A stretch of 32,839 nucleotides of DNA from Deltaproteobacteria bacterium. Its GTDB lineage: Bacteria > Desulfobacterota > DSM-4660 > Desulfatiglandales > HGW-15. The stretch is from positions 1 to 32,839 of the forward strand of contig JAFGGA010000092.1 in NCBI GenBank assembly GCA_016930835.1, given 5' to 3'. The position numbers and the translations under genes are program-made. The notes beneath the pieces were generated by a model, which saw nothing but the letters and a program-made list of their open reading frames with translations, searched no databases and was not told the DNA's origin. Positions 4,351 to 20,955 of this stretch are shown one piece after another. Each line of letters opens with the position of its first letter. Positions within the stretch are counted from its first letter, which is position 1.

Positions 4351-5040
4351 TCATTCTGTTTTAGGAGCCTCTGTCATTATCCTAAGGTCTGAATTTCGAC
4401 CCCTTTCAGACGTCTCTTTGCCGGTTACAGGATGCCTGTAATGGAAGGGACAGATATACCCTGAGGGGTATCTGGGGCTGAATGTTCGCGGGATATCGGC
4501 CTCAGGGGGAGTGAAGTTCGACAGGGAATAGGTTTTAACGGCACGTTCAGGTGCGACCCAACCCACCGCCGGTGAACCGGTATAGAGCTGGTCGAACCGG
4601 AGTTTTTCAAACTTCCATACGTTGTCTTCTTGGATATATTCGGCCATGTATATCCCGCCCATAAAGGCTTCCCGCACACCACTATCCCCGGGGATGGCCA
4701 CGGCACCGAATCCATACCACCGACCCTTTGCCCGCTTACCGTCCGGATCAACAGTGATAATACCGGATAGCTGCATTACCTGATGGAGAAATTCCGGATT
4801 GTTATTGTCGTGGCGCTCGAAATATCTTCTGACCCCTTCCTTCCCCAAATATGTGCCTGCGGCCAGGGTCAAGGAGACATCCGGATCATCGGCAAAAAGA
4901 TCGATGATCTCCGGTGCCATCCAGTGCTCGATGTAATAGCCATAGGCCTTCTGAAGGTTTTTGATAAGCTCGATATCCCGCAGTTCCCTTAGCTCATTTT
5001 CCAATTTCTCTATCCGTTCCAATAATTCTTCTTCGCTCAT
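4351..5040 (-). CDS. NTF2-like / SnoaL-like domain protein
   Basis: The product has 229 residues from the chosen start. A short charged coiled-coil-like helix (EEELLERIEKLENELREL) is followed by an NTF2/SnoaL-type alpha+beta cone fold: IKNLQKAYGYYIEHW.APEIIDLFADDPDVS, then GTYLGKEGVRRYFERH, then a beta-rich part ending in VWKFEKLRFDQLY. Related proteins bind or isomerise small hydrophobic or aromatic compounds, but no catalytic residues can be assigned here. Two in-frame ATGs exist, at 5046 and 5040. A GGGGGA tract (5047-5053) abuts the first and is six bases from the second, so 5040 is preferred. It is the second gene of an operon, 39 bases after the CMD-like gene. The C-terminal ~70 residues are rich in Pro and Ser and extend beyond the usual domain. 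Confidence 0.75.
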   Translation of the reverse strand: MSEEELLERIEKLENELRELRDIELIKNLQKAYGYYIEHWMAPEIIDLFADDPDVSLTLAAGTYLGKEGVRRYFERHDNNNPEFLHQVMQLSGIITVDPDGKRAKGRWYGFGAVAIPGDSGVREAFMGGIYMAEYIQEDNVWKFEKLRFDQLYTGSPAVGWVAPERAVKTYSLSNFTPPEADIPRTFSPRYPSGYICPFHYRHPVTGKETSERGRNSDLRIMTEAPKTE

Positions 5041-5079
5041 GATCATTCCCCCGTTCAGATTGAATATGAAAAACGCAGC

Positions 5080-6026: not shown

Positions 6027-6218
6027 TGATCCGGGAACGGCAGGTTGTCCTATTTCAATTTCCCCGGACAAACCAAACAGATGGTGAGTTGCGTCCTGCC
6101 CGCGTGATCCAAAAGGTCTTCTGTCTTCAAGAGGATTGGCTGATTGGCAAATAACAAATCGCTCCATCAAATAGCTGAAACGTCTAATAGGCTCAACCAT
6201 TCGGTGAATGTATTATGA
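6026..6218 (+). pseudogene. Remnant of a PemK/MazF-like toxin gene
   Basis: From the ATG at 6026, coupled to the antitoxin stop, 42 codons read MIRERQVVLFQFPRTNQ, GELRPARVIQK and EDWLIGK, then stop at 6152-6154. This corresponds to the N-terminal third of PemK/MazF-like endoribonucleases (x-D-I-V-L-F-x-F-P, KLRPALVI, DDWLI). The full proteins have about 110-120 residues. After the stop, the +1 frame reads KSLHQIAETSNRL and runs to TGA at 6216-6218. SLHQ resembles the family's next block (SSQLHQ), so a frameshift plus internal or C-terminal loss is likely. The first block normally has Asp where Gln6 stands here. The toxin should be inactive. Confidence 0.65.
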
Positions 6219-6276
6219 AAGAGTATATAGAAGATATCAAGGAATGAATTTGAATTTACAAGACAAGGAGAAGCTG

Positions 6277-7458
6277 ATGTCAACAAAATTAGATAATAGT
6301 ATTGTATTTTATGCAGCAGGGGATATTGCCCCGTATCGAGAGGATCTAGACACCATTTTCCGGCATGTCAAACCGGTCATTGAAAAGGGTGATCTTGCAT
6401 TTTGCCAGTTGGAGTCATTGATCTCAGATAGGGGTATCCGCCTCCCTCATCGAAATCCCGTTGCTATTGTGGACGGCAAGCCGTTCATGCACGAGGATGT
6501 GTATCTGGGAAAAGCGATTAAAAATGCCGGTTTCACTGTGGTTTCATTTGCAGGCAATCATTGTCTGGATTTAGGGGACGATGCGTTTTTCGATACGATC
6601 AATGCCGTTAAAAAAGAGGGCATGTACATGATCGGTGTCGGTGCCAATATTGAAGAGGCCAGAAAGCCGGCCATTGTTGAACGCAAAGGCACCAAAATCG
6701 CCTTTCTCGCCTATAACTCCATATTACCTCCGGGCTACTGGGCAACACCTAAAAAACCGGGATGTGCACCCCTACGAGGCATTACCGTATACACGCCCCT
6801 GGAACCTGATCAACCCGGAAGGCCCGCGAAGGTACTGACATATCCCAATCGTGAGGACCTGCAGGCCATGATAGCCGATATCGAAAAGATCAGGGGTCAG
6901 GCCGATATCGTTATTGTTTCCCAACACTGTGGGATACATTTTGTTCCTGCGGTTATTGCGGACTACCAGAAAGATCTGGCCCATGCGGCTATTGATTCGG
7001 GCGCCGATCTTGTCTTACAGCACCATTCCCATATTTTAAAAGGTATTGAAGTATACAAAGGAAAGGTTATTTTTTACAGTCTCGGTAATTTCGCGCTGGA
7101 ACTGCCGTACAATAAAGAGTTTCACAAAAAGCCGCCCAATCTGGAAGAGGTGTCAAGGTGGGAGATGTTTCCGGAGTACCTTCCCTGGGCAAAATACGAT
7201 CCGTCCTGTCCCTCATTTCCATTTCATCCGGAGGCCCGCCTAACCCTGATGGTGAAATGCATCATGCATGATAAACAAATCCAAAAGGTGGCGTTCCTGC
7301 CGGTATATCTAAATAATCAAGCTGAACCAGAGATCCAAAAAAGGAATGACAAAAGATTTAATGAAATCATCACATATATTGAAGATATTTCCAGGCGTGA
7401 AAAAATAGCGACAAAATATTCGGTATCTGGAGATGAAGTAATCATTATCGATAACTAA
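6277..7458 (+). CDS. CapA-family (PGA_cap) metallophosphatase-like protein
   Basis: The 393-residue product has the PGA_cap/CapA calcineurin-like layout: AAGDIAP at residues 14-20, CQLESLISD (the NxE-type block), FAGNHCLDLG, SQHCGIHFVP, a DLVLQHHSH metal-binding block and FYSLGNF. Related proteins are linked to polyglutamate or exopolymer synthesis and to other secreted polymers. The asparagine of the usual NLE is Gln-Leu-Glu here. No signal peptide or membrane segment is seen, unlike membrane-anchored CapA, so a cytoplasmic role is possible. The ATG at 6277 has AAGGAG (6265-6270) six bases upstream and is preferred to the in-frame ATG at 6208, which overlaps the toxin remnant. No capBC partners are nearby. 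The substrate is unknown. Confidence 0.8.
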   Translation: MSTKLDNSIVFYAAGDIAPYREDLDTIFRHVKPVIEKGDLAFCQLESLISDRGIRLPHRNPVAIVDGKPFMHEDVYLGKAIKNAGFTVVSFAGNHCLDLGDDAFFDTINAVKKEGMYMIGVGANIEEARKPAIVERKGTKIAFLAYNSILPPGYWATPKKPGCAPLRGITVYTPLEPDQPGRPAKVLTYPNREDLQAMIADIEKIRGQADIVIVSQHCGIHFVPAVIADYQKDLAHAAIDSGADLVLQHHSHILKGIEVYKGKVIFYSLGNFALELPYNKEFHKKPPNLEEVSRWEMFPEYLPWAKYDPSCPSFPFHPEARLTLMVKCIMHDKQIQKVAFLPVYLNNQAEPEIQKRNDKRFNEIITYIEDISRREKIATKYSVSGDEVIIIDN

Positions 7459-8742: not shown

Positions 8743-8869
8743 ACCCCCCCAAAAACCGTTTTTGGATAAGCATGATAAAATCAGTGATATAGCCACATTT
8801 TTCTAATCAAGGAAAGAATTTCAATTCCTAACAACGGTGGAGCATCTTCAAGTGGGACGGTCGAGGATC

Positions 8870-10567
8870 ATGCAACGCATTCTGTTTCTCCAATTACCCA
8901 GACTCGAGAACGACTTGGACGGTGAGGAGGAAAATCTTCATCTTGCCGCATTCTATTTGTCCCACGCATTGAAAAAGGCCCACGGAGATCCCGGATACAC
9001 CTTTCGTTCCTTGACCCATGATGAAGAAATGCTGGATGATGCTCACCTCCTGGATCTCATTATCCGATGGGCTCCGGACGTGGTCTGCGCCACCCTTTAT
9101 CTCTGGAATATCGAGCGCACCCTTCATATCCTCCATCATCTCAAGACAAGGATTCCCCATTGCCTCGTTGTCTGCGGCGGGCCTGAAGTGGCACCTGATC
9201 ATCCTTTCCTGTTTAAACGCCTTATAGCGGATATTGTGGTGATGGGAGAAGGAGAGGCCATATTATCGGATATCCTGCAGGCTCTAAAGGAGGGATATCG
9301 GACCGATTATACTCACACGGCATGGAAGGTGGATGGTACATACCAGTGGGGGAAAAATCATACGCCGGTCGTTGGATTGAAAGAGCTCCTGCCACCTCCG
9401 GAAGATCCGGGCTGGCAACCGGACTCTCCTCAAGGCATGGCCTACCTAGAGACCGGCAGGGGATGCCCCATGCGGTGCAGCTATTGCCGGTATTCTCAGA
9501 TGAGAAGGCGTCCTGTTTTCTCGGAACCAGCGCCCATTCTGCAAAGTGTGAAGATCCTCCGTGCAAGGGGGGTCGAACAGATCCGGTTTATCGACCCGAC
9601 CTTGAATGCTAATCCTTCCTTTGACATCCTTCTAAAAGGATTAAAGGCCCTTAACTCGGATCACGGTGTTCGGTTCTTCGCGGAGGTCCAGGCCGACAAA
9701 CTAACAACGGATCAGATTATTGGACTCGCCAATGCCGGTTTTTCAGAATTGGAAGCAGGCGTGCAAAGCCTGAATGCAGACGTTCTGGGTCGTATCCGTC
9801 GGCCTGTCCGGGTGGAGCTTCTGGAAGGGAACATCCGATTCATGACGGACCAGGGCATTCGGGTCACCATTGATCTCATGTACGGCCTGCCCGGTCAAGG
9901 CTTGGATGATGTCATTCATTCACTTCAATGGGCGGAGCGTTTCAAAAATGCCCATGTGCAATGCATGCAGACCTTGCTTTTGCCGGGCACGGAACTACGT
10001 GAGACAAAGGATCAATGGGGTATTGAATCAGATGATCGGCCGCCATATGGCGTCCGATCCACCAATACCATGACCCATGGGGATATAAGGACTATCGAAG
10101 ATTTCATCAATCAAAGCCAGGGGAGCGAGGGAATGGCGCGTAAGTTCGTGGGATATCGCTTACTGGATCTGTTTGAGGAGCGGGTCCGCGTGCCCATTCA
10201 TGCACGGAGCAAGGATAAGATTCTTCCGGGCCGGTCATCTCGCAGGGCTCTTATTTTCCAGGGATCGGATCTCTATTCTCTACGCAATGGCATCCTGGAT
10301 ACCCTGAGGCAGGCCATGGAGGAAGAGCCCCATATTCTTTGGCAGTTTGTGTTGATGCCCGAATATGAAGAACCCCTTGACCTATTAGAGACCATGATCA
10401 ATGAGATCCGAAACCATCCCATTCATTGGCTGGATCTCTTTGCCCATGCCGCGTGTTGGGATCGTATAGCGTCAAGAAGGGTGTTCGTTCATCTGACCAA
10501 GGGCCGATCCTATTCCGCGGGATGGGTGCGCGCGGCTGAGACCCTGTTGGAAGATCATTTTTATTGA
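8870..10567 (+). CDS. B12-binding-type radical SAM protein
   Basis: The 565-residue product begins with a Rossmann-like B12-binding-type domain (RILFLQLPRLEN..., VVCATLYLWNIE, VVCGGPEVAPDHP, VVMGEGE; about residues 1-150). A radical SAM core follows, with cluster cysteines Cys199, Cys203 and Cys206 in GCPMRCSYC and later strands IRFIDPTLNANP, FFAEVQADKL, ELEAGVQSLN and VTIDLMYGLPGQ. The C-terminal ~130 residues are a separate module with no name I recognise. The expected cobalamin lower-axial DxHxxG motif is not visible, as in many members of this group, so actual B12 binding is uncertain. The ATG at 8870 is preferred over the in-frame GTG at 8837. It is convergent with the glycyl radical enzyme and is not a GRE activase by sequence type. 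The substrate is unknown. Confidence 0.85.
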   Translation: MQRILFLQLPRLENDLDGEEENLHLAAFYLSHALKKAHGDPGYTFRSLTHDEEMLDDAHLLDLIIRWAPDVVCATLYLWNIERTLHILHHLKTRIPHCLVVCGGPEVAPDHPFLFKRLIADIVVMGEGEAILSDILQALKEGYRTDYTHTAWKVDGTYQWGKNHTPVVGLKELLPPPEDPGWQPDSPQGMAYLETGRGCPMRCSYCRYSQMRRRPVFSEPAPILQSVKILRARGVEQIRFIDPTLNANPSFDILLKGLKALNSDHGVRFFAEVQADKLTTDQIIGLANAGFSELEAGVQSLNADVLGRIRRPVRVELLEGNIRFMTDQGIRVTIDLMYGLPGQGLDDVIHSLQWAERFKNAHVQCMQTLLLPGTELRETKDQWGIESDDRPPYGVRSTNTMTHGDIRTIEDFINQSQGSEGMARKFVGYRLLDLFEERVRVPIHARSKDKILPGRSSRRALIFQGSDLYSLRNGILDTLRQAMEEEPHILWQFVLMPEYEEPLDLLETMINEIRNHPIHWLDLFAHAACWDRIASRRVFVHLTKGRSYSAGWVRAAETLLEDHFY

Positions 10568-10865: not shown

Positions 10866-13277
10866 TTATATGTTCAGTTCCGTTCGTCTGATAATATCAT
10901 CTTGTACGCCTTTTCCCAGGTCAACGAAATACGCACTGTAGCCGGCTACCCTTACGATCAAATCCTGGTACTTCTCTGGGGATTGCTGAGCGTCGAGCAA
11001 CTTTTCCTTTCCTACGACATTGAATTGGATCCATTTTCCGCCTATTTCAGAGTAAGTATTGATGAGCATGCCGAGCTTTCTCAAGTCTTCGGTGGTTGTT
11101 AAGGCTGAATTGTGGAGCTTCACGTTGAGCAATGCCGACGAGCAAGAATCCTGGTCTATTTTTGATGCACTCTTAAGCAGTGCCGTAGGTCCATGAGTGT
11201 CTTGCCCCTGCGAAGGTGATACGGTTCCATCAGCTAGAGTCGTACCGGCCAACCTGCCGTCGGGCGTCGCACCGGTTATGGCGCCGCCTGCCCACATGGA
11301 GGAAATCGAGGCGCCCCCGACCCCCCTGATCCTGCCTCCAACGGGGCGTCTAACCGTTTGATATTTCGCCTCCTCGTCTACAATGAACTTGTAGAGATCT
11401 TTTGCGATTGAGTCAACGTAGTCATCGTCGTTTCCGTACTTGGGGGCCTGCAGACACATTTTTCTGATATTCTCATTTCCTTCCCAATTCTTGGCTAAGG
11501 CCTCTTTCAGCTGTTTCATGGTTATCTTCTTCTCATCAAATACGAGCGATTTGACGGCCGCCAGCGAGTCCGCGGCATTGATGGCACCGACAGGCACCAT
11601 TACCGCCCTGAAATCATATGGAGGCACAGGATCTCTTCCTCCTAACGGTTTTCCCATCTTTATGCCATCATGGACCATAGCCGTCTCAAGAATCTCTACG
11701 GCATCGTAATAACCGTTTACACCCCTTGAGTATGCCAAGAGAGCGCTATGTTCATGCCATAGGCTGATAAAATGCGCCATAAAGTCTTTAAACCCGGCGT
11801 AGAACTCATCGTATGTCTTAAGGTCTTCGACGTTCAGTTTGTAGGGTCCTGCATCCAAACCCGTCTTGGGATCTACACCGCCATGCATAAACACTTCCAG
11901 AACCCTGGGAACGACAAAGAAGCTGCCGCCCAGGAAACTTGCTTTCCCGGGGATAGCTGGGTCCAGGCATCCCGCGAGATGGTAGTTTCGCGCGGATTCT
12001 ACCGGTATGCCTCCAGAGGTCAGATATTCAATAAACGACTTATCCATGGCGATGGCCGGCATTCCTATTCCCGTCTTTACAACTTCCAGTGCCTTAATCA
12101 TTAACTTTTCAGGGGTTTCTTTATGAACCCTCAGTGATATGGTGTGATGCGTTATTTTCGTTTTATCCGCTGCTTCCAATACCAGGTAGGTCAGTTCATT
12201 GGTGGCGTCTTTTCCGTCAGGTTTGACACCTCCGATGGTCATATTTCGCCATTTGGCGAAACCAACGTGTTGTGAACGCTTTGCGCCTGAGAGTTTAATA
12301 TTTTCAGGCTTCATGCATTTGATGCGCAGCTCGCAGAGTAGATCCAAAACTTCATCGTCGGTTATCTTGCCCTCATCCATGTCTTTTTTATAAAATGGAT
12401 ACATATATTGGTCGAATCTTCCCAGATTGTGCGTCGATGCAGGTGTAAACAATATCTGGTTAAACCAAAGCGACTGCATGGCCTCGTGGAAATTTTTGGG
12501 AGCGTTGGCTGGCACCCAACGACAGGCCTCCGCAATTGTTTCCAATTCTTTCTTTCGTTGGGGACCTTTTTCGTTTGCCGCTAAAGCCTCCGCGGCGTCG
12601 GCGTATCTTTCGGCAAGTCGAATGACGGCCTTAAGGACGAGAATAACTGACTCGAGGAAATATTTCTTTTCAACGGCATCCTGGGTGAGTAACTTAAGTG
12701 TCTGAATCTCTTCCTCAGCCTCCTTTATGATCGGGTTCAGTCCGTTAATCCATCTTTCGAAGTCCGCATAGCAATCCGTGAAGTTAAAGGACAGACAGAG
12801 ACCACTGCCCGCGTATGCGCCTCGAAACTCTTCCTTTCTTTTCATGGGCGGAAGAATAATACCCAGTTGGAGGAACCCGAACAGCCGTTCATCGAAAAGC
12901 TTGGATTGGGTAAATTCCGCGCACCTCGTCTCCCAATATTTACCTATTTCTGTTATGGCCTGCCATTCGTTCTCTTCAACCGAGACAATCCCATCTTCTT
13001 CAGCGCCCTTGATATCATCCTCTTTCCACTGTCCCAGAAAAGGGTCGAGTTCAGCCCCCCAAGGTTTGCTTGCCCCTTCACCGACGATCAGCTCATCATC
13101 ATCAATCAATATGGGGATGTTTTCCAGCATATGCGCGTATGCCTTTGCAAATCTCAAGATTGGGGGATCACCCTCATTTTTTTTATAAGATTCTGTGATC
13201 AATCGAGCTTTTTCAGTGCAAAGCGGGAATCTTTTTTTGCGTATTTTGGCCATTTGTTTCTGTATTCTTGTTTCCAT
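10866..13277 (-). CDS. Glycyl radical enzyme (pyruvate formate-lyase superfamily), substrate unassigned
   Basis: The 803-residue product covers the full GRE architecture: the PFL-like barrel and the C-terminal glycyl radical domain. The radical motif RVAGYSAYF has its glycine at Gly779, 24 residues from the end. The thiyl cysteine is Cys437 in AGCLDPAIPGK. Many diol-dehydratase- and lyase-type GREs have GCxE, whereas here the fourth position is Asp439. The segment that carries an active-site His in the dehydratase type (GHTxPDY) reads NFTDCYADF near residue 165. These changes argue against a simple glycerol/propanediol dehydratase or choline lyase. Decarboxylase or fumarate-adding types remain possible but cannot be decided. 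GGAGG is well placed before the ATG. No activase lies in the window. The aldehyde dehydrogenase upstream on the same strand is a possible partner. Confidence 0.88.
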   Translation of the reverse strand: METRIQKQMAKIRKKRFPLCTEKARLITESYKKNEGDPPILRFAKAYAHMLENIPILIDDDELIVGEGASKPWGAELDPFLGQWKEDDIKGAEEDGIVSVEENEWQAITEIGKYWETRCAEFTQSKLFDERLFGFLQLGIILPPMKRKEEFRGAYAGSGLCLSFNFTDCYADFERWINGLNPIIKEAEEEIQTLKLLTQDAVEKKYFLESVILVLKAVIRLAERYADAAEALAANEKGPQRKKELETIAEACRWVPANAPKNFHEAMQSLWFNQILFTPASTHNLGRFDQYMYPFYKKDMDEGKITDDEVLDLLCELRIKCMKPENIKLSGAKRSQHVGFAKWRNMTIGGVKPDGKDATNELTYLVLEAADKTKITHHTISLRVHKETPEKLMIKALEVVKTGIGMPAIAMDKSFIEYLTSGGIPVESARNYHLAGCLDPAIPGKASFLGGSFFVVPRVLEVFMHGGVDPKTGLDAGPYKLNVEDLKTYDEFYAGFKDFMAHFISLWHEHSALLAYSRGVNGYYDAVEILETAMVHDGIKMGKPLGGRDPVPPYDFRAVMVPVGAINAADSLAAVKSLVFDEKKITMKQLKEALAKNWEGNENIRKMCLQAPKYGNDDDYVDSIAKDLYKFIVDEEAKYQTVRRPVGGRIRGVGGASISSMWAGGAITGATPDGRLAGTTLADGTVSPSQGQDTHGPTALLKSASKIDQDSCSSALLNVKLHNSALTTTEDLRKLGMLINTYSEIGGKWIQFNVVGKEKLLDAQQSPEKYQDLIVRVAGYSAYFVDLGKGVQDDIIRRTELNI

Positions 13278-13842
13278 TCCAAGTATCCTCCAAATTATTA
13301 TTAAAAAAATGTTATTATTGAGATTGGATTAACTTATATCCATAAATATACTAGTTATAAATATAAAACTTTCAGGATTTTTTATTTCATTAATATCCTG
13401 CTATTCTAGTTAATTTTGTCAGAATACTTTATATGATCTCAAGTATATTATTACCTTATTGGTATTTCTTGTCTGGTTTGTACTACCAAGTGCTTATTCC
13501 ACGAAATAGACACACCAGCTCCCTGTGCTGACGTTCCTTGCCGGCATGCCAAGACCGCTTAAAGTCATTCGTCTGTGGAGTTTCGCGGCATTCTGGTGAA
13601 GATGGAGAAACGTATAGGTAAAAGCGCTTTGTTAGATAATATGCAAATCCACGTGGCAGGCATTACGTGGTTGATAAGCGATCTTTAATGGAAGTATAGG
13701 GGATATGTCCTTTTGTGTCAAACAAATATGGTTACATATCCATCACATTCCCTGCAAACCATTATAGCAGCAAAGGGGTCCGGCACATAAGGATTTGAAT
13801 GTAGAGCAGTTGCTGAATCAGTTTGGTTAAAACATCCTGAGC
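13278..13842. other. Long AT-rich leader/promoter region of the glycyl radical enzyme gene
   Basis: No gene is seen in these 565 bases. The 200 bases nearest the GRE start (13290-13480) are strongly AT-rich, contrasting with the GC-richer 13500-13680. An inverted repeat GGATATGT (13701-13708) / ACATATCC (13734-13741) lies nearer the aldehyde dehydrogenase stop. A separate promoter for the GRE gene is likely; no confident -35/-10 or -24/-12 match was found. Confidence 0.4.
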
Positions 13843-15288
13843 CTAAAACCATCGAATGTTAAGGAGAAGGTCATACATCCTCTCGAAAGTCTTACCGTAA
13901 GGTGGATAGACAAAGGCGGCACCTAAGGGTAAAACCGCCTGTTTGAAGACGGGGCGGAGTTTGGAAAATTCCATAAATCCTTCGTAGCCGTGATATTGGC
14001 CCATGCCGCTGTTTCCGATGCCGCCGTAAGGCATGTCGTGCTGTACGATATGCATGGCGCAGTCGTTGATGCACATAGCGCCTGACATGGTATTCATAAC
14101 CACCTTTTCCTGAAGCTCGCGATTTTTTGTGAAAAGATAGAGGGCAAGAGGCCTTCCATGCGCTTTTATATATTCGATGCACTGGCCGATATCCTTATAG
14201 GTCTTGATGGGCAGTATGGGACCAAATATCTCTCTTTGCATGATCTCCATATCTTCCGTCACGTTGAGGATAATGGTGGGTGGAATCTTTCTTAACTCAT
14301 TGTCCGGTTTGCCGTCAGGGATGAGGTTGACCAATACAGCACCTTTGGAACGGGCATCGTCCAGGACCTTTAGGAGATGATGGTAGCTTTCATTGTCTGT
14401 AATGGAGGTGTAGTCAACGGATTCCAGAAGTGGATACCGGCGCCGCATAACCCGCTTGGATATTTCCACAAAATCATCCACCATGTGTTCAGGCAGAAAA
14501 AGGTAGTCGGGGGCGATGCAGGTCTGCCCTGAATTCATGAATTTGGTGTAGAGGATCCGTCCGGCCGCTTTTTTGATATTGAAATCTTCACAAATGATGG
14601 TAGGGGACTTCCCTCCCAGCTCAAGGGTCACCGGGGTGAGGTTTTCAGCCGCGGTCTTCATCACCATTCGTCCGGATGCGGGAGAACCTGTAAAAACAAG
14701 GTGGTCAAAGGGAAGGGGAGTGAAATCATCGTAAGAGACCCCAGGTAGGATTGCGATAAGATCTTTATTAAATGACTTGGTAAATAACTGGTGGAGAAGA
14801 TTGCACAGGTTCTTGGAATGGGTCGCCATCTTGATCATGCAGCGGTTGCCAGCGGCTAAAGCGCTGGTCAAAGGGCCTATGACCAGGAACAAGGGATAAT
14901 TCCGGGGTGCGATGATCCCCACCACCCCTTTGGGTTGCGGGATAACCTGGTTTTGGGCCCCCTTGAATGTGAGCGCCACATGCCTTTTCCCGGGTTTCAT
15001 CCATTTCTTTAATCTTCTACGGGTGTAACGGAGACCGGAAACAGATGTAAAGATTTCAAGGATCTTGGTTTCATGTCTTGACCGGTTGCCGAAGTCAGCG
15101 GATACAGCGTTTGCAATCTCCTCCTGGTTCTTTTTTAACAGGTTCTCCAATTTCAGGAGCACATCCAGGCGCTCGTTGAGCGAAAGGTAGGGCTTTTTCA
15201 GACAAGCTGCTTTCTGGCGGTTGAAGATTTGACCGGCTTGGGTCTCTTCACTGCCCGCTTGAGACAGGACCTCCGTTTTATGCTCCAT
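13843..15288 (-). CDS. Aldehyde dehydrogenase, coniferyl-aldehyde-dehydrogenase-like
   Basis: The 481-residue product is an NAD(P)-dependent aldehyde dehydrogenase of the shorter class-3/coniferyl aldehyde dehydrogenase type. The catalytic Cys257 is in SGQTCIAPDY, the general-base Glu223 in LELGGKSP, and the substrate Asn in APRNYPLF (usually PWNYP). The C-terminal part has EIFGPILPI, MPYGGIGNSGMG and FSKLRPVF, also typical. It oxidises an aldehyde to the acid; the substrate is not given by the sequence. GGGGAGG is seven bases upstream of the ATG. The protein ends with a hydrophobic stretch (LGAAFVYPPYGKTFERMYDLLLNI), as in membrane-associated relatives. It lies upstream of the GRE gene on the same strand, but the 565-base gap suggests separate promoters. 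Confidence 0.88.
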   Translation of the reverse strand: MEHKTEVLSQAGSEETQAGQIFNRQKAACLKKPYLSLNERLDVLLKLENLLKKNQEEIANAVSADFGNRSRHETKILEIFTSVSGLRYTRRRLKKWMKPGKRHVALTFKGAQNQVIPQPKGVVGIIAPRNYPLFLVIGPLTSALAAGNRCMIKMATHSKNLCNLLHQLFTKSFNKDLIAILPGVSYDDFTPLPFDHLVFTGSPASGRMVMKTAAENLTPVTLELGGKSPTIICEDFNIKKAAGRILYTKFMNSGQTCIAPDYLFLPEHMVDDFVEISKRVMRRRYPLLESVDYTSITDNESYHHLLKVLDDARSKGAVLVNLIPDGKPDNELRKIPPTIILNVTEDMEIMQREIFGPILPIKTYKDIGQCIEYIKAHGRPLALYLFTKNRELQEKVVMNTMSGAMCINDCAMHIVQHDMPYGGIGNSGMGQYHGYEGFMEFSKLRPVFKQAVLPLGAAFVYPPYGKTFERMYDLLLNIRWF

Positions 15289-19510: not shown

Positions 19511-19999
19511 CTATAAATAATATAAAGTCTCATCCACGCGGGGCGGGCGCTGTCTGAGTGCCTTTCCTACTTTCTCCTTAAAACTGAACGGCTCTTCTCC
19601 TTCTAAGAGGTCTCCCATTTCCGCCTCTATTTGATCGGGATCTTCTCCGGCTTCCATTCTCGCAAGGGCCTCTTCCATTCCAGGACCAAGGTTTAGACCG
19701 GTCATGTCCGTCAATTTGCGCATGAGATTGACCGCTTGTCTCGGATCATCTTCATCCATGTGTTCGGCCTCTTGGGCAAGGAGATTCATAGCCTGCATCA
19801 TTTTGGATTCATCCATGTCCGGCATGGCCGTCACATCTTCCTCGCCGCGGTTTTTTGATATGGCAAAGGTGGACATCTGTCGGATGAGCCGGGTTTTATT
19901 GCATTTGGGGCAGTGGGGCATGGTTTTCACATTCACGCTGCCCGAGAAAAAATTGAAGATCATATGACAATTTTTACAATAGAATTCATATATAGGCAT
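19511..19999 (-). CDS. FmdB-family zinc ribbon protein
   Basis: From the MPIYEFYC start the product has 162 residues. The N-terminal zinc ribbon has CKNC and CPKC, the FmdB/CxxC-CxxC regulatory-type domain. It is followed by a long acidic tail rich in Glu, Asp and Met (EAEHMDEDDPRQAVNLMRKL, GMEEALARMEAGEDPDQIEAEMGDLLE), which is seen in many Desulfobacterota homologues. AGAGGAA is placed before this ATG, so the upstream in-frame ATG at 20038 is not preferred. The role is unknown; FmdB itself was proposed as a regulator of formamidase genes. Confidence 0.85.
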   Translation of the reverse strand: MPIYEFYCKNCHMIFNFFSGSVNVKTMPHCPKCNKTRLIRQMSTFAISKNRGEEDVTAMPDMDESKMMQAMNLLAQEAEHMDEDDPRQAVNLMRKLTDMTGLNLGPGMEEALARMEAGEDPDQIEAEMGDLLEGEEPFSFKEKVGKALRQRPPRVDETLYYL

Positions 20000-20478
20000 G
20001 AGTCGTTCCTCTAAGCTGTTTGTTTCCATCCCGTTCAAGTTACGCTTCTATCTTTCTTTTCGCCAGCGAGCCGAGAGGTGCCGCGGTTTTATACCTTCGA
20101 GACGCTAGCCTCTTTCCAAGTGAAAAATGGTGAATGTCGGAAATAACTAATTGAAAATTTTGAGTATCTAGGGGCTTGACACATGTTTCATGCTCCTGTT
20201 TTAATAGGAGATCGATTTTTTTAAGGAGATACAAAATAAACGCTTGTACGTCAATTGTTTTTAGATGATGGTTGATTCCTTCTTGTGTTTTTTTTCGATT
20301 TGGGATAAGTTCAATCCCAATATATAGTGTTTTTTCAGATTCCAAATTCTATATAAGCTATCCTTATCATTTCGACCTTGCCCTATTCAGCCATAAGCAA
20401 AAGAAAGGCTGAGTCGATGCGTGGGGTAAGAGGGGATTGTTTCCTGATAATTCCCTTGGCCTGGAGGTCATTCTGGTT
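20000..20478. other. Divergent intergenic region, no convincing gene
   Basis: A minus-strand TTG-initiated ORF (20040-20345) has no ribosome-binding site and no recognisable domain, and is not accepted. A short inverted CAGCC/GGCTG pair lies near 20388-20412. Promoters for the fmdB-like gene (minus) and the phosphodiesterase gene (plus) must lie here. Confidence 0.4.
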
Positions 20479-20955
20479 ATGAAAATCGGGGTTTTGTCGG
20501 ATACACACCTGAACGGGGCCTCACAAGAATTGCGCCGGATATATGACCAGTATCTGGTTGATATGGATTTTATCCTGCACGCAGGCGATTACGTGTCTCC
20601 TGAGGTTATCGAGTTTTTGGATAGGGGTCGCTTTCATGGGGTGCGGGGGAACATGGATCCCTTGCAGATCGCTCAATTGGTCCCGGAAAAGAAGGTGATT
20701 GAATTGGGTGGTCATCGGATCGGTCTTATTCACGGCTGGGGACCGGCTGAAGGTCTTGAGTTTGAGGTCCAAAAGGTGTTCCAGGATGTGGATGTGATCG
20801 TGTTCGGGCATGCGCACATGCCCACGAATCACGTTCGGAATAATATACTGTTTTTTAATCCGGGCGCGGCCATCGGGTATCATCGGTCCTCAGCCAATAC
20901 TATCGGCATATTGGATTTGGGGGAAACCATTCAAGGTAAAATTATTGAAATATAG
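20479..20955 (+). CDS. YfcE-family metallophosphoesterase
   Basis: The 158-residue product has the small calcineurin-like phosphodiesterase layout: GVLSDTH at residues 4-10, ILHAGDYV, VRGNMD, LIHGW and VFGHAHMP, which provide the two-metal-site Asp, Asn and His ligands. Members hydrolyse phosphodiesters with broad specificity. GGAGG lies 11 bases upstream of the ATG, a long but usable spacing; an in-frame TTG at 20437 is less likely. The HIT gene follows after 15 bases, so the two are probably cotranscribed. Confidence 0.88.
   Translation: MKIGVLSDTHLNGASQELRRIYDQYLVDMDFILHAGDYVSPEVIEFLDRGRFHGVRGNMDPLQIAQLVPEKKVIELGGHRIGLIHGWGPAEGLEFEVQKVFQDVDVIVFGHAHMPTNHVRNNILFFNPGAAIGYHRSSANTIGILDLGETIQGKIIEI

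Follow-up and report, generated by a model that had tools for sequence, protein, structure and literature searches.

Several glycyl radical enzymes (GREs), namely the B12-independent glycerol and diol dehydratases (GD, DD), choline TMA-lyase (CutC), trans-4-hydroxyproline dehydratase (HypD) and isethionate sulfite-lyase (IslA), are eliminases that carry a CXE motif at the thiyl radical cysteine. In the structure of HypD, a distance of 2.5 A separates H160 from E436 of this motif, and the H160Q and E436Q variants are both inactive (PMC7077986). The X-succinate synthases (BSS, MAS) have a Cys loop of the CMSP type.

The protein described here, P0001, is encoded in a stretch of 32,839 nucleotides (the window) from a Deltaproteobacteria bacterium (GCA_016930835.1, contig JAFGGA010000092.1). 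Judging from its sequence, it is a real and conserved member of an uncharacterised GRE subfamily and has a distinctive catalytic pair. GD and DD (1r8w, 5i2a) and CutC (5faw, 9f3w) share with it the fold family, the thiyl Cys, the glycyl radical motif and an acidic residue two positions past the Cys, and they give the highest phmmer scores; in CutC, too, the His column holds Asp. P0001 differs from them in having only 34–36% identity, CXD for CXE, an extra loop at residues 136–162 and a branch of its own. HypD has similar Cys and Gly loops, and positions 168 and 439 of P0001 are the counterparts of its H160-E436 contact pair; at 31% identity, P0001 differs in having Asp at both positions and Ser281 in the column of HypD Asp278. 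IslA and the (2S)-3-sulfopropanediol (DHPS) lyase HpsG have, like P0001, a Trp at the GD Y339 column (W343) and an acid two past the Cys. Compared with IslA, the Arg of SFRSS and that of DVRYV are replaced by Phe164 and Gly654, and a Gln is replaced by D168.

The gene and its place among glycyl radical enzymes

P0001 is read from an ATG start through 803 codons that are free of internal stops. It matches the PFL-like family at E=2e-154 (516 bits, cut-off 24.3) and the Gly_radical family at E=4e-29 (101.8 bits, cut-off 22.2), and with such E-values the GRE assignment is not due to chance. The features of the locus are collected in Table 1.

Table 1. Positions of the features in the window and, where available, their conservation.
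Feature	Position	Strand	Remarks
GRE gene P0001, 803 aa	10866..13277	-	Intact ORF; PF02901 + PF01228
Gly779 codon, glycyl radical position	10941..10943	-	Kept in 10/10 orthologs
Asp439 codon (GCLD instead of GCxE)	11961..11963	-	Asp in 10/10 orthologs
Cys437 codon, thiyl radical position	11967..11969	-	Aligned with GD C433; kept in 10/10 orthologs
His377-His378	12144..12149	-	Invariant in subfamily; second position is Pro in all nine references
Asp168 codon, column of GD H164 / HypD H160 / CutC Asp	12774..12776	-	Asp in 10/10 orthologs
Subfamily-specific loop, residues 136–162, preceding NFTDCYADF	12792..12872	-	Mostly unmatched in nine references
Shine-Dalgarno GGAGG of GRE	13287..13291	-	Read from sequence
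Promoter-like site TTGACA-17-TATACT, between aldehyde dehydrogenase and GRE	13693..13721	-	11/12 consensus match; a match to the consensus alone, no evidence of function
Aldehyde dehydrogenase (PF00171)	13843..15288	-	Pfam; neighbour, left out of the system

The aldehyde dehydrogenase lies upstream on the same strand, 565 bp away, and P0001 looks monocistronic. The first-pass annotation had taken this neighbour as a speculative hint of an aldehyde intermediate. That link was dropped: none of the ortholog neighbourhoods examined contains a homologue of the dehydrogenase, and the GRE comes with a Shine-Dalgarno sequence and a promoter-like site of its own. A B12-binding radical SAM protein (8837-10567, plus strand), whose best NCBIfam matches are far under cut-off, is convergent with the GRE. 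The window also encodes a PGA_cap-family protein (6208-7458, plus strand), with a 53% homologue adjoining the GRE and activase cluster of contig C114 (L025), and a SnoaL_4 protein (4351-5046, minus strand), relatives of which adjoin the ortholog of genome G004.

When P0001 is compared with solved structures using phmmer, eliminases take the top scores among GREs, with CutC at 480 bits, glycerol dehydratase at 459 and isethionate lyase at 411; hydroxyproline dehydratase reaches 368 and TutD (benzylsuccinate synthase) 275. Aligned identity to nine references is 30–36%. The NCBIfam model of the PFL2-3 subfamily gives 572.7 bits, under its cut-off of 678. No NCBIfam equivalog is reached, every score being less than 55% of its own cut-off. 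The best-scoring equivalog is HpsG (NF048011), with 518 bits against 1000, while HpsG proteins of the phylum over the cut-off score 1180–1560; the CutC model (TIGR04394) gives 516 against 1050 and the HypD model (NF043068) 471 against 1100. With C437-L-D439 at the CXE site, P0001 is kept out of the eliminase class here and is proposed only to work like its members. It has GCLDP at the site of the CMSP-type loop of TutD and MasD.

Sequences of GREs from the same genome, from relatives and from the nine solved references were aligned, and unrooted trees were built by a quick maximum likelihood search with SH-aLRT support only. A second tree also took in HpsG, PflD, the protein of genome G131 and a Novosphingobium plasmid protein. 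P0001 belongs to an ortholog group of 10 members (SH-aLRT 100), itself part of a 20-member subfamily (SH-aLRT 100). This subfamily forms its own branch, on the side where the eliminases lie, and holds none of the 11 references, namely GD, DD, CutC, HypD, IslA, HpsG, PflD, PFL2 of Archaeoglobus, 9rco, TutD and MasD. The branch with TutD and MasD is set apart at SH-aLRT 97–98. Close clustering with a characterised GRE is thus not seen among these references. Since the subfamily is deep, kinship is a weak guide to the reaction class. The branch is described nowhere in the open-licence literature searched (on GCxD, on PhdB residues, and on GREs in Acidobacteria and Dehalococcoidia). A scan of viral contigs for homologues gave one partial match, at 34%.

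Catalytic residues and paralogs

The radical residues can be read directly from the sequence: Cys437 sits in RNYHLAGCLDPAIPGKAS (AGCLDPAIPGK) and Gly779 in DLIVRVAGYSAYFVD (RVAGYS). C437, D439, D168 and G779 are all kept in orthologs of several phyla, which have near-invariant motifs. The first-pass annotation had reported intact radical residues, GCLD in place of GCxE, and an altered His segment, NFTDCYADF. All three hold; the segment covers residues 165–173, with D168 at the His column. Seven references have Glu in the column of position 439, and TutD and MasD have Ser. In the loop before the segment, PP(M/W) and AYAGSGLCL are kept among orthologs.

H160 contacts E436 in HypD, and D168 is in the column of H160; positions 168 and 439 should therefore touch. 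If the alignment holds, we infer that the window group has an Asp-Asp pair instead of the His-Glu contact pair. The columns are aligned without gaps over 168–176, but they adjoin a 27-residue loop that is mostly unmatched in the references, so this stretch of the alignment is less certain. An AlphaFold2 model built from eight sequences was too poor for use (mean pLDDT 58.6, active-site segments <50).

Other residues differ from those of GD. In the alignment, W343 takes the column of Y339, A656 that of Y640, and Gly or Ala at 450 that of D447; His-His replaces x-Pro. The loss of D447 and Y640, which bind glycerol in GD, speaks for a different and probably larger substrate. It is likely to be larger than glycerol or choline.

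The first-pass annotation had read the active site as pointing to a reaction outside the well-known dehydratase and choline-lyase classes, which is only half borne out. In favour of this, it clusters with no characterised GRE tested and both active-site changes are present in 10/10 orthologs. For the choline lyases the altered segment alone is insufficient, because CutC also has Asp in the His column.

The genome carries about 12 GRE loci. Six of these encode sister paralogs of the same subfamily (two on contig C113, two on C114, one each on C132 and C196), with 47–50% identity. They are like P0001 in having His-His but unlike it at position 168, which is hydrophobic (Leu, Ile or Met). GCxD is typical across the subfamily: five of these six full-length paralogs have it, and one has GCLE. 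As most GRE functions are separated at identities higher than 40–50% (PMC11528403), the paralogs probably act on other substrates than P0001.

Among the relatives collected, GCxD was seen only in this subfamily. Other departures from GCxE are common outside it (GCVY, GCMR, GCAG, GCxH, GCAN). A missing CXE Glu is therefore not rare in uncharacterised GREs, and it is the conserved Asp that marks the branch. Three further GREs that this genome encodes (L028:2976-5408, minus strand; L028:7060-9531, plus; L024:2630-4819, minus) group in a clade apart and have GCAN, GCVH and GCSH where CXE is expected. Relatives' GREs with GCVY, GCVT, GCMR, SCVSR or GCAG (L033-L038, L043, L045, L046, L048, L052) make up several uncharacterised clades, most of them on the fumarate-adder side of the tree.

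Fragments and outlying members also occur. At the end of contig C7 there is a GRE fragment (L028:12811-14501, plus strand) with GSMN at the thiyl site, a change of Cys to Ser, and at the end of contig C196 a C-terminal fragment (L024:7669-8361, minus strand) with the radical motif RLGGTS. These could be the two halves of one GRE (563 + 230 aa). No ortholog was found in 60 relatives at 1e-120. Novosphingobium is an aerobic genus, and plasmid Mpl of Novosphingobium sp. PP1Y carries an ORF for a GRE-like member of this subfamily (L082:3905-6400, plus strand) with GCLG and RIGGCS, and with HP at the position of His377-His378. It adjoins a transposase-like ORF, and no activase is evident among the nearby ORFs.

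Activase, orthologs and gene neighbourhoods

A Pfam scan of the window found no GRE activase, in line with the first-pass annotation; the sole radical SAM protein was ruled out as an activase because it is of the B12-binding type. The earlier suggestion that the activase be sought elsewhere in the genome bore fruit: two full-length GRE activases, both over the TIGR02494 cut-off, are present on contigs C7 and C114, the latter at 19587-20510 of its contig. The gene is thus an orphan with respect to its locus, as had been claimed, but not with respect to its genome.

In four orthologs (L018, L019, L020, L022) an activase directly adjoins the GRE. These activases share 54–55% identity with the C114 activase and about 41–45% with that of C7, so the C114 enzyme is likely to activate P0001 in trans. 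Genome G131, and the genomes from which L017, L019 and L021 come, contain relatives of the C114 enzyme at 54–74%; of ten same-family genomes lacking the GRE, nine gave no match at 1e-40. The pairing of GRE and activase is not universal, as genomes G004, G008 and G016 have orthologs but activases of only 46%.

The ten orthologs are 60–80% identical and come from Desulfobacterota-like, Acidobacteria, Dehalococcoidia, Bacillota and SM23_31 assemblies. They are rare: of the 297 genomes sampled from the phylum, 4 have one, the window's own included. The closest (L017, PLLL01000022.1; 80%) is from an assembly named Dehalococcoidia, and orthologs of same-family genomes reach 67–69%, which suggests gene transfer or mis-binning.

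Carboxylesterases lie near the orthologs L019, L020, L022, L059 and L060, and other alpha/beta hydrolases also occur. FAD_binding_2 proteins are found near L018 and L020, and UGSC-family selenoproteins near L018, L019, L059, L060 and L061. The L018 neighbourhood has class III CoA-transferases and a MaoC protein, and that of L022 a 2-hydroxyacyl-CoA dehydratase-type protein. Part of these assignments is by similarity to a scanned homologue, rather than by a scan of the neighbour itself. Around the paralogs there are TRAP transporters, CoA-transferases and MmgE/PrpD proteins. The window shares with the ortholog loci only the SnoaL_4 protein and a distant molybdopterin oxidoreductase.

The pattern suggests the breakdown of ester-containing natural products, without naming a substrate. 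Esterases and UGSC proteins recur and no gene is common to all ortholog loci; no substrate is claimed from the neighbourhood. A lead towards benzene activation in ORM2 Desulfobacterota (PMC13101534) was also set aside; in the part of that source considered, the cluster comes without a described GRE.

The UGSC family (PF24696) has 12 genes in the genome of the window (G000), ten of them with an in-frame TGA (selenocysteine). In L059, a TGA in frame before GSC gives UGSC. Genes of this family include L059:7044-8753 and L066:2102-3928, and the N-termini of the UGSC proteins of L059-L061 resemble signal peptides.

Possible reactions and their meaning

The preferred reading, to which we give a probability of about one half, is that P0001 is a functional, cytoplasmic, catabolic GRE that is activated in trans by the C114 activase and performs a radical 1,2-elimination, with D439 as the base and D168 as its partner. 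The trans-activation, the acid/base role of the aspartates and the reaction class are what we infer here. An activase would install the radical on Gly779, which would pass to Cys437 as a thiyl radical. This would abstract a hydrogen from the substrate carbon bearing OH (or NH). With the D168-D439 carboxylates taking over the acid/base role of His-Glu, a leaving group would be lost from the adjacent carbon, and the Cys would give its hydrogen back. The substrate is perhaps derived from an ester-bound natural product. Elimination via the Asp-Asp pair is the most economical reading of the sequence. The inactivity of HypD E436Q does not imply the effect of an E-to-D change at that site, and position 168 is hydrophobic in the sister paralogs, so the pair is not required across the subfamily.

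Other chemistries can be considered. P0001 might be an aryl- or alkylacetate decarboxylase of the HPAD, IAD or PhdB type, with D439 serving as the Glu that contacts the thiyl Cys. The motif is compatible with this, since the Glu of HPAD and IAD also coordinates the thiyl Cys (PMC6181972); moreover, the source of PhdB is an Acidobacterium (PMC6181972), and orthologs of P0001 occur in Acidobacteria. The 483 bits of the IAD model (NF033718) may seem to favour it as well, but that score is far under the curated cut-off of 1100, as are the 381 bits of the HPAD model (NF033715) under 1150. HPAD structures match more weakly in phmmer, at 381 and 256 bits (the latter for 2y8n). A small HPAD-type subunit was not recognised among the neighbours scanned, in a search that was not systematic. 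HPAD and IAD are set apart by these curated scores only, the trees not having included them or PhdB. Taken together, decarboxylation is unlikely. Fumarate addition, as by an X-succinate synthase, is the most improbable of the readings considered: although GREs are many in the genome and its relatives, and the latter include MasD-like enzymes (L056), the Cys of TutD and MasD is followed by the CMSP residues, their branch is separate, and no small bss- or mas-type subunit was recognised among the neighbours scanned.

Alternatively, the Asp-Asp pair and the new loop could set a radical chemistry beyond elimination, decarboxylation and addition, for instance one that opens a ring or cleaves a C-O ether bond in a cyclic or aromatic natural product. 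The unique pair, loop 136–162 and His377-His378 agree with this, as do ortholog neighbours such as carboxylesterases, abhydrolases, FAD_binding_2 proteins, CoA-transferases and UGSC selenoproteins, and many GRE clades are still uncharacterised (PMC11528403). The neighbours differ between genomes, however, and may reflect general catabolic islands; we regard such chemistry as possible but somewhat doubtful. It is very unlikely that P0001 is a decaying or non-catalytic paralog in a genome with expanded GREs. The gene is isolated, without an adjoining activase, and another GRE fragment of the genome (L028) has lost its Cys; against this stand the intact frame, the near-invariant motifs across phyla and the Shine-Dalgarno sequence of its own.

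More broadly than the elimination reading, the subfamily may tentatively be seen as a class of GREs that has acid/base machinery of its own (the pair, His377-His378 and the loop), a substrate new to GREs and a shared activase that acts in trans on several of them. The window group would then use Asp168-Asp439 and the sister groups Asp alone, for example in C-O cleavage of an ester-derived natural product of plants or microbes.

With a natural Asp at the base and a His partner replaced by Asp or by a hydrophobic residue depending on the group, the subfamily offers a natural experiment on how the reaction is controlled. The branch-specific activase is a practical partner for expression and EPR. 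The branch points to a group of anaerobic reactions, as yet uncharacterised, among bacteria of sediment, peat and the subsurface.
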